Shown here one piece after another: positions 34,988-41,325 of a DNA stretch of 41,325 nt. The first letter of the stretch is position 1. Each line of letters opens with the position of its first letter. Position numbers and translations under genes: made by a program. The DNA is from an uncultured Sulfurimonas sp. (lineage in GTDB: Bacteria > Campylobacterota > Campylobacteria > Campylobacterales > Sulfurimonadaceae): assembly GCA_937900945.1 (NCBI GenBank), contig CALCGG010000207.1, forward strand, positions 1 through 41,325, read 5' to 3'. The notes below the pieces were generated by a model. That model saw nothing but the letters and a program-made list of their open reading frames with translations, had not been told where the DNA came from and made no database searches.

Positions 34988-37900
34988 ATGAGCGTACAAC
35001 CCTTCACACATTTACATCTTCATACAGAATACTCACTGTTAGATGGTGCAAATAAATTAACAAATTTAGTAAGCCGTGTGAAAGAGCTTGGTATGACCTC
35101 TGTTGCCATGACGGATCATGGGAATATGTTTGGTGCTATTGACTTTTATAAACAGATGAAAGAAGCAGGACTCAAGCCTATTATCGGGATGGAAGGGTAT
35201 ATCCATAATGGCGCTACGCTGGATGATAAAACTACAAGACAGAGGTTTCATGTTTGTCTGTATGCAAAAAATAAAAAAGGCTATGAGAACCTCATGTACC
35301 TTTCTTCCAAGGCTTTTATAGACGGATTTTACTACTTTCCCCGCATCAACAAACAAGAGCTTCGTGAGCATTCTGAAGGGATTATCTGCTCTTCTGCATG
35401 TTTGCAGGGTGAAGTGAACTGGCATCTTAACCTTAGTGAGAGAAATCTTAAAAACGGTGCACTTGGGTATGAAGCGGCAAAACAAGTCGCTCTTGAATAT
35501 AAAGAGATATTCGGTGATGATTTTTACCTTGAACTTATGCGTCATGGGATTGGTGACCAGCTCAACATCGATGAACAGATTTTAAAAATCGCCAAAGAAA
35601 CAGAGATAAAAGTCGTAGCGACAAATGACACGCACTACACTTACCCCGGCGATGCTCAATACCATGAAGCGTTTATGTGTATAGGGATGAATAAACTCTA
35701 TGATGACCCAAATCGTATGCGCCATTCAGTGCATGAGTTTTACATTAAAAGCCCAGCGCAGATGGCTCGGCTTTTTGCTGATATTCCTGAAGCTATAACG
35801 CACACTCAGGAGATTGTAGATAAATGTGAAGATTACAGTCCTATCGTTAAAACCCCAACACCACCTAACTTCAAATTTACAAAAGAGTATGCAACAGCTG
35901 AAGGTTTAAATATCAACTATGCCGATGATACGCCTATATCTAAAGATGCCAGTGAAGATGAGAAAAAGAAATGGTTCAGTGCGGCTGATAAAAATGATGC
36001 AGAATATTTCATCGTAAAGTGCCGTGAAGGTTTAGAGAACAGACTCAAGATAGTTCCACCGGAGCGTCATCAGGAGTACAGAGACAGACTTGAGTTTGAG
36101 ATGGATGTTATAAACTCCATGAAATTTCCGGGTTACATGATGATAGTCTGGGATTTTGTGAAAGAGGCAAAAAGAATCGGTGTGGCTGTTGGTCCAGGGC
36201 GTGGTTCGGCAGCGGGGAGTTTGGTTGCTTTTTCTCTCGACATCACCGACATTGACCCTATGAAGTATGATTTGCTTTTTGAGCGTTTTTTAAATCCTGA
36301 ACGTGTAAGTATGCCCGATATCGATATGGACTTCATGCAGGCACGACGCGGCGAAGTTATAGACTATGTTGTGCAAAAATACGGACGAAATCAGGTAGCG
36401 CAAATAGTCACTTTTGGTTCACTTCTTGCAAAAGGGGTTATCCGTGACGTTGCCAGAGTTTTGGACATGCCTCTGAGTCAGGCAGACAAAATGGCAAAAC
36501 TTGTTCCCGATGAGCTTGGCATCACACTCAACGGTAAAACAAAAAATGGGGAGTTTAAAGAGGGTGCTTTTCAAAAAGAGCCGAAACTTCAAGAGCTCAT
36601 AGCGAGTGATCCGAATTCTGCAAGAGTTTGGGAGTTTGCTAAAAAGCTTGAAGGACTCAAGAGAAACTCAGGGATGCATGCAGCCGGCGTTGTTATCTCA
36701 AACGAGGAACTTTGGAAAAAAACTCCTATCTATAAACCATCAGGTGAGACAACTTTTATAACACAGTATTCACTGAACTTCCTCGAAGATGTCGATCTCA
36801 TAAAGTTTGACTTCTTGGGACTGAAAACTCTCGATGTAATTGACAATGCTATAAAGCTGATAAAAAGAAGATATGACAAAGATATCGACTGGCATCTCAT
36901 AGATGAAAATGACAAAAAAGTTTATGATGTGGTTCAAACAGGCGAGACTGTTGGCATGTTCCAGATAGAGTCCTCCGGTATGCAGGATTTAAACAAACGC
37001 TTAAAACCTTCAAACTTCGAGGATCTTATCGCGGTCTTGGCACTTTATCGTCCGGGTCCAATGGAGTCGGGGATGCTTGATGACTTCATCGAGCGTAAAC
37101 ATGGTCGTCAGGCGATTACATATGTATTTCCCGCACTTGAAGAGATACTTAAGCCGACGTATGGGGTTATCGTTTATCAAGAACAGGTAATGCAGATTGT
37201 TCAAACCATAGGCGGTTTTAGCCTTGGCGGTGCGGATATCGTTCGTCGCGCCATGGGTAAGAAAAAAGTTGAAGAGATGCTAAAGTACAACAAAGAGTTT
37301 TCTCTTGGTGCACAAAAACAGGGACTTGATTACGACAAAGCTTCAAAACTTTTTGACCTTATTGAAAAGTTTGCCGGATACGGTTTTAACAAATCACACT
37401 CGGCAGCGTACGCGATGGTTACATTCCAGACTGCATGGCTCAAAGCGTACTATCCAAACGAGTTCATGGCGGCACTTTTAACCTCAGACAAAGACAACAT
37501 GGATAAAGTTGTCCGTTATATCGATGAGGTAAGACGGATGGGAATCGAGCTTTTACCTCCTGATGTTAACGACTCATACTTGGAATTTTCAGCGATAACC
37601 AAAGATGAGAGAGAGATTGTTTTATTTGGTCTTGGAGCTATTAAAGGGGTTGGAAAATCTGCTGTTTTATCCATCATTGAGACGAGAGAAAAGAGCGGAG
37701 ATTTTACCTCCATCCAAGATTTCGTAAATAGAATCGACCCTTCAAAAGTAAACAAACGCTTTGTAGAATCTGTCATAAAAGCAGGCGGATTTGACAGGTT
37801 TGGATTCTCAAGAAAAGCACTTTTAGACCAGATAGAACTCATCGTTGAGACTGCAAAAAAAGCGAGTGATGCCAAGAAAAATGCGATGGGAAGTCTTTTT

Positions 37901-38599
37901 GGTGATGATGACGAGATTACAACCGTGAAGTTGGAACTTACAAACTCAGATGAGTACACGCTTAAAGAGATTTTGGAGTTTGAAAAAGACACTTTAGGAT
38001 TTTATGTCTCAGGGCATCCAATGGATGAGTACAGAGAGCAGATGGAAGATTTAAGTTATACGCTGTCCTCCGAAATAGAGAGTGTAAAAGACGGTTCTTA
38101 TGCTATTTTCATCGGTAAAGTCGAAGAGATACAAAAGAAGACATCCAAAAAAGGAAACCAGTTTGGGATTGTGAGTCTCATGGACTTCCATGGCAACGTT
38201 GAGATTATGCTTTTTTCCGATAAGCTTGATGAACTCAATGAGATGGACTTAAATGAACCGGTAGCATTTAAAGCAAAAATCACCCACACAGAGATGTTCA
38301 CAAGAATCGGTGTGACAAAAATCATGACACTCAAAGAGGCAAAAAAAGAGACGAAGAAAGTGAAAAAAGAGGTGCAGGAAATTGCGCCGGAACCTATAAA
38401 CCTTGCAGTAAGACTTGACAATGATAGCAAAATTCTAGATGAGCTATACTTACTGATAAGACAACACCCAGGCAACCGCCCGCTCAAAATAACACTTTTA
38501 GCAAAGCTTCAAAATGTCGTGATTGACTCCGCAATAAGGGTAAGCAGCAACATAATAACAGCTTTGGAAAATAATGAACATGTGGATATTATTTCTTAG
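34988..38599 (+). CDS. dnaE: DNA polymerase III subunit alpha
   Basis: 1203 aa, full length for DnaE1. The N-terminal PHP domain begins FTHLHLHTEYSLLDGANKL; the catalytic aspartates are in PDIDMDF (residues 443-449) of the palm; LYRPGPMESGMLDDFIERK belongs to the fingers; FNKSHSAAYAMVTFQTAWLKAYY precedes the helix-hairpin-helix region, and an OB fold starts near SYAIFIGKVEEIQKK. This is the replicative polymerase. It is the last core gene before the defence region. Confidence 0.98.
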   Translation: MSVQPFTHLHLHTEYSLLDGANKLTNLVSRVKELGMTSVAMTDHGNMFGAIDFYKQMKEAGLKPIIGMEGYIHNGATLDDKTTRQRFHVCLYAKNKKGYENLMYLSSKAFIDGFYYFPRINKQELREHSEGIICSSACLQGEVNWHLNLSERNLKNGALGYEAAKQVALEYKEIFGDDFYLELMRHGIGDQLNIDEQILKIAKETEIKVVATNDTHYTYPGDAQYHEAFMCIGMNKLYDDPNRMRHSVHEFYIKSPAQMARLFADIPEAITHTQEIVDKCEDYSPIVKTPTPPNFKFTKEYATAEGLNINYADDTPISKDASEDEKKKWFSAADKNDAEYFIVKCREGLENRLKIVPPERHQEYRDRLEFEMDVINSMKFPGYMMIVWDFVKEAKRIGVAVGPGRGSAAGSLVAFSLDITDIDPMKYDLLFERFLNPERVSMPDIDMDFMQARRGEVIDYVVQKYGRNQVAQIVTFGSLLAKGVIRDVARVLDMPLSQADKMAKLVPDELGITLNGKTKNGEFKEGAFQKEPKLQELIASDPNSARVWEFAKKLEGLKRNSGMHAAGVVISNEELWKKTPIYKPSGETTFITQYSLNFLEDVDLIKFDFLGLKTLDVIDNAIKLIKRRYDKDIDWHLIDENDKKVYDVVQTGETVGMFQIESSGMQDLNKRLKPSNFEDLIAVLALYRPGPMESGMLDDFIERKHGRQAITYVFPALEEILKPTYGVIVYQEQVMQIVQTIGGFSLGGADIVRRAMGKKKVEEMLKYNKEFSLGAQKQGLDYDKASKLFDLIEKFAGYGFNKSHSAAYAMVTFQTAWLKAYYPNEFMAALLTSDKDNMDKVVRYIDEVRRMGIELLPPDVNDSYLEFSAITKDEREIVLFGLGAIKGVGKSAVLSIIETREKSGDFTSIQDFVNRIDPSKVNKRFVESVIKAGGFDRFGFSRKALLDQIELIVETAKKASDAKKNAMGSLFGDDDEITTVKLELTNSDEYTLKEILEFEKDTLGFYVSGHPMDEYREQMEDLSYTLSSEIESVKDGSYAIFIGKVEEIQKKTSKKGNQFGIVSLMDFHGNVEIMLFSDKLDELNEMDLNEPVAFKAKITHTEMFTRIGVTKIMTLKEAKKETKKVKKEVQEIAPEPINLAVRLDNDSKILDELYLLIRQHPGNRPLKITLLAKLQNVVIDSAIRVSSNIITALENNEHVDIIS

Positions 38600-38642: not shown

Positions 38643-39074
38643 ATGAAAACAGATATACGATGGCACCAACGATTTTCAAATTACAAAAAAGCGTTAATTC
38701 AATTGCAGGATGCCGTACAATTATCCCAGCAAAGAGAACTTACACCGCTTGAAAAGCAGGGGTTAATCCAATCGTTTGAATATACGCATGAGCTTGCATG
38801 GAAAACACTCAAAGATTTTTTGCAATACCGCGGCAGTACAGAAGAGATTTACGGCTCGAAAGATGTCTCAAGACAAGCTTTTGCAAATGGGATTATCTCC
38901 GATGGTGAAACTTGGATGAGCATGGTAAAAAGCAGAAACTTAACATCTCATACCTACGATGAAGAGACTGTAGAAAAAATAGTAGATGTGATTTTAGGAA
39001 GCTATATTTTTGAGTTTGAAAAACTCGAAGAAAAACTTGATAGTTTAAAACAAGAAGAGTTTGGTAACATATGA
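38643..39074 (+). CDS. hepT: HepT-like HEPN toxin (HI0074 family)
   Basis: 143 aa, all-helical. It belongs to the nucleotidyltransferase substrate-binding (HI0074) family, and the HEPN active motif R-x4-H-x-Y is intact: Arg98, His103, Tyr105 in MVKSRNLTSHTYDEE. In characterised HepT/MntA pairs, HepT is an RNase toxin cutting tRNA and the motif tyrosine is adenylylated by MntA to silence it. Here AGGATT precedes the ATG, and the gene overlaps its partner by 4 bases (ATGA). Toxin status is inferred from motif and pairing. Confidence 0.87.
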   Translation: MKTDIRWHQRFSNYKKALIQLQDAVQLSQQRELTPLEKQGLIQSFEYTHELAWKTLKDFLQYRGSTEEIYGSKDVSRQAFANGIISDGETWMSMVKSRNLTSHTYDEETVEKIVDVILGSYIFEFEKLEEKLDSLKQEEFGNI

Positions 39075-39364
39075 AATATGGACTAAGCGAAGATGTTGTT
39101 GCTAAAATAAAATCTGTATTTGCTAAGTATCCTCAAATAAAAAAAGTCGTACTTTATGGCTCAAGGGCAAAAGGGAATTTTAGGGATGGCTCAGATATAG
39201 ATTTGTCTTTGGGTGGAGATGATATACAGTTTTCACTTTTGCAAAAGATAGAGCTGGAACTTGATGATTTACTACTCCCATATACTTTTGATTTATCTGC
39301 TTATAGTGAGTTAAAAAGTGATGAGCTTAAAGAGCATATTGATAGAGTTGGCATTTTGCTTTAG
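39071..39364 (+). CDS. mntA: MntA-like minimal nucleotidyltransferase antitoxin
   Basis: 97 aa, a minimal nucleotidyltransferase. The G-S-x10-D-x-D motif is complete: Gly30, Ser31, Asp42, Asp44 in YGSRAKGNFRDGSDIDLSL. A third acidic residue lies in YTFDLSAY. In this family the enzyme transfers AMP to the tyrosine of the HepT toxin. It overlaps the hepT-like gene by 4 bases, so the two are made together. The 72-base gap that follows has no strong terminator. Confidence 0.88.
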   Translation: MKYGLSEDVVAKIKSVFAKYPQIKKVVLYGSRAKGNFRDGSDIDLSLGGDDIQFSLLQKIELELDDLLLPYTFDLSAYSELKSDELKEHIDRVGILL

Positions 39365-39377
39365 TAGAATATTTATT

Positions 39378-39440
39378 ATGAAAAGGATTTGGCGTAATGG
39401 AAAATATTTCATTTCAGAGCTGCATGTAGAACTATCATGA
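39378..39440 (+). other. Short reading frame overlapping the jetD start
   Basis: A 20-codon frame (MKRIWRNGKYFISELHVELS) fills most of the gap between mntA and the jetD-like gene and ends in an ATGA overlap with the jetD ATG at 39437. It lacks a good ribosome binding site. It could couple translation into jetD, be a gene remnant, or be chance. Confidence 0.15.
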
Positions 39441-40216
39441 ATAAAACAATCCTCAAACAAGCTTTTTTATTTAAAGATGAAAATCCTGTTTTTAGCAAGG
39501 TAAAAGAGTTGAGTCAATTGGCTTTAAAGTATCAAAGTGAAAATGAAATTTATTTTTTACATGCAAAGCGAGGGGAAAAAGCAGTTGTTAAAAATCAAGA
39601 GCTTTTTTTTAGATTTTTGTTCCAAACACAGCAGGTGAGTATAAATAATTTTGAAGATATAAGCAATATTTTAAACGCTGAAACTAGAAGTGATAATATT
39701 AAGTTCAGCGGAGATTCTAAATCAAATTTTATTAGAGTTTTTGATAATGTGGTTGTTGTTAAAAAAAAAGGCGAAATAGCAAAACTGTATCAAAGTTATG
39801 ATTTGAATGAACTGGAGATAATAGAAAATTTTTTAGCTATAGAAAATGGGGAAACTTTTTTAAATATTGAAAAATTTTCAGAGTATTTTAATGAAGATTA
39901 TTTTATATATTTGGCTGGATATGCAAACACACTTACGAGAACCTTTTTAAAAACAAAAAAAGTAACTTTCTTTGTAGATTTCGACATTGAGGGGCTGAAT
40001 ATTTATGAGAGTTTTGAATGTGAGAGTAAAAAGTTGCATATTCCAAAAAATATAGAAAAATATTTTTTAAATGAAAAATATAATAATGTTGAATTGTATA
40101 AGAAACAAAGAGCAAGAATGAAAAGTAACTATTCACAAGATGTTATGCCAATAATTGAACTTATAAAAGAATACAATACAGTAGTCGAACAAGAGATAGT
40201 TTATGAAACACATTGA
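39437..40216 (+). CDS. jetD: JetD-like Toprim nuclease subunit of a Wadjet-type system
   Basis: 259 aa. The C-terminal half has a Toprim-like core as in JetD (DUF2220) and topoisomerase VI: a glutamate in IENGETFLNIEKF (Glu136) and an acidic D-x-D in FVDFDIEGLNIYES (Asp181, Asp183). The N-terminal half (about residues 1-110) is unrecognised and would correspond to the arm or hinge part. In Wadjet systems JetD cleaves circular DNA that has been extruded by the JetABC SMC complex. The following gene is kleisin-like and overlaps by 14 bases, which supports the call. The DNA is very AT-rich. The ribosome binding site is weak. Confidence 0.72.
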   Translation: MNKTILKQAFLFKDENPVFSKVKELSQLALKYQSENEIYFLHAKRGEKAVVKNQELFFRFLFQTQQVSINNFEDISNILNAETRSDNIKFSGDSKSNFIRVFDNVVVVKKKGEIAKLYQSYDLNELEIIENFLAIENGETFLNIEKFSEYFNEDYFIYLAGYANTLTRTFLKTKKVTFFVDFDIEGLNIYESFECESKKLHIPKNIEKYFLNEKYNNVELYKKQRARMKSNYSQDVMPIIELIKEYNTVVEQEIVYETH

Positions 40217-41297
40217 ACTCCTAAAATTGCTCCATGACAACAGAGAATCCATAGATAAAGCTTATCGACAGGATTACGTCCAAAATGTGTCGCATGAGTT
40301 GCTTGATTCAACGCTGTTTGTGAAGATAAATGAGAGATATAAACTCAATAAAAACTACTTGAATTTTGTAGATTCTGTTTTGCAGAGAATCGATTACAGC
40401 ATTATCTTTGGTGATTACGAAAAAGAGTACAAAGAGCTGGTTAAAAACAAAAAAAGGTACCAAGAAAGCTCAAGCGAGTTTCATAAATCTGCCATACTCA
40501 AGCTCATAGAAGATTTATACCAAAAGTTTACCAATCGTGATAGAGAGATACAGATACTTCTGCTTCGTCTTGAAAACGACACCTCTTTAGACATAGATAT
40601 TTTGCTGGAAAATGCAGGAGATATTTTAGAAAAAATTGATGAATTAATAAGCGCTAATGAGAAGATAGGCTCTTTTTTTAGAGAAGGTTTGAGAGGTGTT
40701 GATGATGCGGTTGACACACTTCTGCAAAGTATTAGCGTAGATATATTAAAGTACATACAAAACATTGATACCTACATAAAACAAATAAATCAGTTTATTA
40801 TTCAAACTAAAAAAAGACGCTTTGTAAATAAACAGATAATTAAACTTTCAAATATGATTTTAGATGAGGATGTAAATATTTTAGAAGAGCATTTAACGCT
40901 TCACTATAAAACCCTCTATCATACAGTAGAGAAAAGCCAAAAAAATAGAATTTATGCCTTTGTAGATGATGAAGATATTGTTAAAATAAAAAAAGAGTTA
41001 AAGGCTATGTTCTCTCATCTTGAAATCTCAAAGCCAGTGAAAAACAGCTCTATTAAACCGCAAACAAAAGAAAAGTTAGAAATAATTGATATAGATAAAT
41101 TACTAAGAGAGTTGGAAACTGAGAAAAGTGATGATATATTTTTGTTTATAAAAGCTCACTCTGAGTTATCAAAATACAAAGACAGCGAACTTATCAATGA
41201 ATCTTTTAAACTTTACCTGCAAATAATTACAGATGAAAGAGTATTATTTAACAAAAATTTTAATGAATTTGGCATAAAGGTGGCAAAATGGCAGTAG
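40203..41297 (+). CDS. jetA: JetA-like kleisin (MukF-type) subunit of a Wadjet-type system
   Basis: 364 aa, almost entirely helical with no enzymatic motif. A probable winged-helix N-terminus (residues 1-80) leads into a long helical region (about residues 80-265) with a middle segment resembling MukF-like bundles, then a charged linker (about 270-295) and a C-terminal winged-helix-like domain (about residues 300-364). This layout fits JetA, the kleisin that bridges the SMC heads. Family recognition from sequence alone is moderate; the JetD-like gene before it and the start of a further overlapping gene after it strengthen it. It overlaps the next gene by 10 bases. Confidence 0.62.
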   Translation: MKHIELLKLLHDNRESIDKAYRQDYVQNVSHELLDSTLFVKINERYKLNKNYLNFVDSVLQRIDYSIIFGDYEKEYKELVKNKKRYQESSSEFHKSAILKLIEDLYQKFTNRDREIQILLLRLENDTSLDIDILLENAGDILEKIDELISANEKIGSFFREGLRGVDDAVDTLLQSISVDILKYIQNIDTYIKQINQFIIQTKKRRFVNKQIIKLSNMILDEDVNILEEHLTLHYKTLYHTVEKSQKNRIYAFVDDEDIVKIKKELKAMFSHLEISKPVKNSSIKPQTKEKLEIIDIDKLLRELETEKSDDIFLFIKAHSELSKYKDSELINESFKLYLQIITDERVLFNKNFNEFGIKVAKWQ

Positions 41298-41325
41298 GTT
41301 TGGATGAAGTGTTTAAAGTTTTGAG
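41288..41325 (+). CDS. Start of a third gene, probable JetB (MukE-like); cut by window end
   Basis: Only about 12 codons are visible, reading MAVGLDEVFKVL and then leaving the window. The ATG lies inside the end of the jetA-like gene (10-base overlap), so it is translationally coupled. Its position after the kleisin-like gene predicts a JetB (MukE-like) subunit; the sequence itself is too short to support a family. Confidence 0.45.
   Translation, partial: MAVGLDEVFKVL

Follow-up and report, generated by a model that had tools for sequence, protein, structure and literature searches.

In the reviewed model of JetABCD (Wadjet) systems, ATP-driven loop extrusion makes the motor collide with itself on small circles, and this activates a Toprim dimer that cuts DNA (PMC10586767). 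MksBEFG of C. glutamicum, a type I Wadjet, is built from an SMC protein, a kleisin, a KITE protein and a Toprim nuclease, encoded in the order mksF-E-B-G with the nuclease gene last (PMC10123090). In the nuclease MksG, E236 and D279 are the metal residues, and E349 and E351 are proposed alternative nucleophiles (PMC10123090). The type I JetABCD systems of E. coli GF4-3 and P. aeruginosa PA14, as well as locus L121 of Campylobacterota, contain the same parts.

Here we describe a locus that shares these parts but begins with the nuclease. It lies at the right end of a 41,325-nucleotide stretch of DNA (the window) from an uncultured Sulfurimonas sp., a marine sulfur bacterium whose draft genome of 2.35 Mb comprises 244 contigs. 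Its close relatives in named collections are mostly Sulfurimonas. The window is a whole contig (G000:C207, here C207) and its right edge is where that contig stops. The gene order in this lineage is D-A-B-C, letters that correspond to MksG-F-E-B. By its parts and fold, the system is a diverged, compact member of the MksBEFG/Wadjet group that falls outside types I-III as modelled in PADLOC. We regard it as likely that the locus is an unclassified, nuclease-first variant of this group, predicted to cut circular plasmids. The relevant features of the window are as follows.

34988 to 38599, forward strand: dnaE, the left border of the insertion site holding the system and outside the mechanism.
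39437 to 40216, forward strand: D, a compact JetD/MksG-like Toprim nuclease of 259 aa, assigned from Pfam, an AlphaFold2 model and motif conservation.
40203 to 41297, forward strand: A, a putative MukF/JetA-like kleisin of 364 aa, assigned from an AlphaFold2 model, Foldseek and hhalign.
41288 to 41325, forward strand: B, the first 13 codons of an MksE/KITE-like gene whose remainder lies past the contig end, assigned from the B genes of relatives in the equivalent position.

One probable operon on two contigs

Among the window reading frames, D and A overlap by 14 nt and A and B by 10 nt, the latter gene starting at the ATG at 41288. An earlier note on this DNA had given these frames, both overlaps and the residues Glu136, Asp181 and Asp183 of D, and all were confirmed at their coordinates. 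Relatives without an inserted gene have comparable junctions, with overlaps of 4-23 nt between D and A and of 8-13 nt between A and B. Such overlapping genes suggest translational coupling on a single mRNA. Upstream of D, a 10-codon reading frame (39398-39430; MENISFQSCM) follows an AAGGA-like sequence and stops 6 nt before the D start. It is possibly a leader of D, and no counterpart was found in the relatives examined. The region between dnaE and D also holds a HEPN/MNT-type pair (38643-39364), consisting of an NTase_sub_bind protein (1.3e-47) and a Pol-beta nucleotidyltransferase; in locus L058, two reading frames of equal sizes occupy the corresponding place.

The 13 visible codons of B (MAVGLDEVFKVLS) find their match in the MksE-like gene that relatives carry. 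The earlier note had read the locus as the left end of a Wadjet-like SMC system and proposed a search for an SMC ATPase and a JetB-like gene, and the former, with part of the latter, was found in the same genome. Searching that genome with an orthologous SMC gave one location, on contig C106 (C106:92-3664, locus L061). The encoded protein has 1190 aa, is 69% identical to the query over that length and carries a Walker A motif (GDNGSGKT, 28), a signature motif (SSTGGS, 1098) and a Walker B motif (FLIVDE, 1127). Directly before it, at the start of the contig, stand the last 28 residues of B (150-177). All four genes of the proposed system are thus at least partly present.

On the 3′ side of the SMC gene, C106 encodes an M18 aminopeptidase followed by a reading frame sized like the histidine kinase of relatives, and these two genes are the neighbours of several complete operons in relatives. 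Because the downstream neighbours are those of complete operons, C207 and C106 are most likely two halves of one locus; their unbroken join is inferred from synteny. Between them, about 136 codons of B, or about 0.4 kb, are missing. That both contigs end within B, together with the frequency of insertions in the operons of relatives, would suit a decaying remnant in which B is interrupted at the contig break and the locus is non-functional in this genome. We find this improbable: D, A, C and the B tail are all open and conserved, and the missing sequence looks more like an assembly gap because an insertion would leave both halves of B complete.

The family assignment of B and C draws on the orthologous operon L039, in which Pfam places B in PF21980 (MksE, 5.9e-14) and C in DUF3584, a MukB-like family (2.4e-19). 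The KITE assignment comes from this orthologue, the window genome itself showing B codons 1-13 and residues 150-177. The features of the Wadjet/MksBEFG group, namely an SMC ATPase, a KITE protein, a MukF/JetA-type kleisin and a Toprim nuclease, are present.

A compact Toprim nuclease and a putative kleisin

In Pfam, D matches PF23947 (DUF7281) above the cut-off (E=1.7e-8) and PF09983 (JetD_C) with 22.0 bits, exactly at the cut-off of 22. Its AlphaFold2 model (pLDDT 89, pTM 0.60) has its best structural match in MksG of C. glutamicum (8b7f; Z 13.5, rmsd 2.9, residues 104-259); topoisomerase VI A scores a Z of 11 (10-11 for topoisomerase VI A and Spo11) and P. aeruginosa JetD (7til) a Z of 9.4. 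The active-site candidates E136, D181, D183, E251 and E253 stand in the same order as E236, D279, E349 and E351 of MksG, an E / D / ExE layout of the same kind. E136, D181/D183 and E251/E253 likewise align with the IEN, GDxD (GDID) and EQE motifs of type I JetD. All of 16 homologues keep E136, D181, E251 and E253, and nearly all keep D183; the catalytic motifs are retained, with few exceptions, in relatives with D first and in those with D last. A chance Toprim match was considered and is ruled out by the MksG score, the conserved motifs and synteny. Topoisomerase VI A and Spo11 have the same Toprim fold; D instead stands with an SMC operon, and no gene for a topoisomerase VI B partner was seen among its neighbours.

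At the level of sequence, D has no significant match to MksG. A profile-profile comparison, thin in covering just two type I JetDs, gave a probability of 1.6% and an E-value of 0.03, with IEN and DxD correctly aligned. The protein is more than 100 residues shorter than known JetD/MksG proteins (259 aa versus 368 residues in the solved chain of MksG), with about 100 residues ahead of the Toprim part. None of the PADLOC JetA-D models for types I-III matched the window's D and A or the B and C of L039; the positive control L121, from the same phylum, was recognized with E=0 for JetC1 and 3e-112 for JetD1. NCBIfam made no assignment, and searching PDB with profiles of all four subunits returned nothing meaningful, with no sequence-level match to solved Wadjet proteins. 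B of the type I systems and of this lineage alike matches Pfam MksE; in the type I locus L121, JetA is a DUF3375 protein of 481 aa and JetB a DUF4194 protein, unlike the window system.

The kleisin is less surely assigned than the fold of D. A matches no Pfam or PADLOC family, and its AlphaFold2 model (pLDDT 72, pTM 0.40) shows winged-helix-like N- and C-terminal ends with a long helical middle. Foldseek ranks MukF 7nyw first (E 8e-4), then JetA 8q72 of E. coli JetABCD and MukF 3euh, and ranks 1-5 are all MukF or JetA. A second structure comparison, which scored syntaxin and CorA helical bundles equal to MukF, does not discriminate, since it gives similar scores to many sorts of helical bundle. 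The kleisins of D-first and D-last operons are homologous across nearly their full length (hhalign E 1e-9). We assign A with modest confidence as a kleisin of the MukF/JetA type. Structure prediction has thus borne out the Toprim fold that the earlier note expected in the first protein and, at this lower confidence, the kleisin fold in the second, and the JetA-D profile searches it proposed found no match. Its suggestion of a less studied type or a divergent lineage holds for the divergent lineage in Campylobacterota; a known type, as far as the PADLOC models for types I-III represent one, was not recovered.

Gene order among relatives and the insertion site

In a sample of 200 genomes of the family, A was found in 19 and D in 18; among the good genomes, 14 of 137 have D, a patchy distribution with the system in about 10%. 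The order D-A-B-C, with the JetD-like gene leading as the earlier note had read it, extends to about 20 Campylobacterota genomes from Sulfurimonas and other families, including genomes in which a contig break or an insert separates D from A. MksBEFG-like operons with D last (L057, L103-L109, L114; Campylobacterota and Bacteroidota) have a homologous SMC, KITE, D and kleisin and are, as for the window system, matched weakly or missed by the PADLOC models. They differ in their order A-B-C-D, with a D of 246-297 aa and a kleisin of 349-413 aa, and form separate branches of the SMC and D trees.

The SMC-head tree joins the D-first clade and two D-less rows in one group (95/85), whose sister is the Campylobacterota pair L102/L103, with D last. 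D is also last in the outer Campylobacterota and Bacteroidota rows. In the D tree, a single branch (94/91; present in 96% of bootstrap trees) sets the D-first nucleases apart from the rest. Because the D-first SMCs nest among D-last relatives, the nuclease-first order is most simply read as a single derived relocation of D inside Campylobacterota, the direction of which depends on outgroups with long branches. Gene order alone is no new principle, and a known Wadjet type, II or III, may also have D first.

A third order, C-B-(A)-D, is found on a Vibrio plasmid (L116:5986-12428), where a D of the same Pfam domain (DUF7281, 3e-26) accompanies a distantly related SMC and a neighbour resembling MksE (26.1 bits, cut-off 27), A being assigned by position only. 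DUF7281, named as unknown in Pfam, appears to be a relative of JetD. Locus L117 is a Tn7-like element on an IncC plasmid and has an SMC operon in the order C-B-A. The plasmid search returned distant relatives only, and no relatives were found among IMG/VR viral contigs.

Operons of the form A-B-C without D occur within the D-first clade (L049, L054) and in Bacteroidota (L115, L120). For the former, the simplest account would be at least two losses of D after the relocation. In L049 (10635-11286), a PIN-like toxin gene, assigned from sequence, and a small upstream partner stand where D was, and the toxin gene overlaps A. These D-less operons recall MukBEF and P. aeruginosa MksBEF, which are nuclease-free and act on the chromosome (PMC10586767, PMC7617805), and could mean that the SMC core serves chromosome organisation as a housekeeping MksBEF condensin, with D an accessory or optional nuclease rather than the reason for the locus. 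However, in most D-first genomes D is present, overlaps A and has intact motifs, and the system is confined to about a tenth of the family genomes at a variable insertion site, all of which makes a housekeeping role unlikely.

The site itself is bounded by dnaE and the gene for the M18 aminopeptidase. The two genes stand 9-17 nt apart in 8 genomes of the genus (empty sites) and about 0.5-0.8 kb apart in 4 further genomes; in the window genome the distance is at least 5 kb (window 38599 to C106 4370). In other genomes the gap is occupied, or M18 is flanked, by genes for restriction-modification, D-last Wadjet-like systems or other functions. The dnaE/M18 junction of Sulfurimonas is a hotspot for insertions (loci L129-L131, L135-L137, L141, L145 and L153-L158), and it holds the operon of the window. 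The patchy distribution of the system fits a mobile defence cassette.

Defence genes are also nested within the operons of relatives. Locus L041 (7455-16829) has the order D, PLD/SNF2 helicase, Eco57I-type methyltransferase, A, B, C; 4-nt ATGA start-stop overlaps join D to the helicase gene and the methyltransferase gene to A. The same kind of helicase/methyltransferase module separates D from A in L040 (8168-18308); the two modules are 42-43% identical, and the A proteins of these two genomes are 61% and 76% identical to that of the window. Other inserts are McrBC between C and D (L102:10423-13423), a Fic gene separating D from A (L056:1197-2138) and, at the A/B junction, a YhcG nuclease (L042:9687-10697) or an antisense Xre-RES toxin pair (L050:8119-9263). 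In the type I Wadjet L121 (657-9838), genes for a DNA methyltransferase and a restriction enzyme separate jetB from jetC. Nested genes may reflect insertion into a permissive place, or something beyond that. As a speculative extension, which we hold improbable, the SMC core would work with exchangeable effectors, D being first, last or lost, and motor and restriction system would form a composite defence in which, for example, methylation shields self DNA from motor-triggered cutting.

Predicted action against small circular DNA

From the four genes, the fold of D and, less surely, of A, the catalytic motifs and the D-first clade, homology with JetABCD allows us to propose how the system would work. 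SMC (C), kleisin (A) and KITE (B) would load on DNA and extrude loops with ATP. When the DNA is a small circle, completion of the loop would bring both motors of the dimeric complex together. Their collision would relieve the D dimer of its autoinhibition, and its Toprim sites would then cut both strands. Small plasmids would thus be destroyed, and the chromosome and linear DNA spared. Through the coupled mRNA, D would be produced together with the motor subunits and not after them. The earlier note's idea that a leading nuclease gene might set its dose relative to the SMC motor is a conjecture on which none of these results bears.

The restriction, McrBC and toxin genes that surround the system at the defence hotspot might instead point to phage, or some other circular replicating DNA, as the main target in place of plasmids. 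No feature of this anatomy indicates a different trigger, and the JetD/MksG systems studied so far target small circular DNA (PMC10586767, PMC10123090, PMC12287153), which counts against a phage target and leaves it very unlikely.

The predicted plasmid-cutting variant bears on how such systems are counted and studied. A large published survey of this group kept only systems whose kleisin measured 400-1200 aa (PMC7617805). Such systems have probably been under-counted, because this size filter would drop a kleisin of 364 aa. Type I Wadjet has been the subject of most work so far (PMC10586767); this lineage offers a smaller nuclease and kleisin in a rearranged operon. D is a small nuclease for studying what activates JetD, and the natural operons with and without D are a setting in which to follow how the conversion between a defence complex and a chromosome condensin happens.
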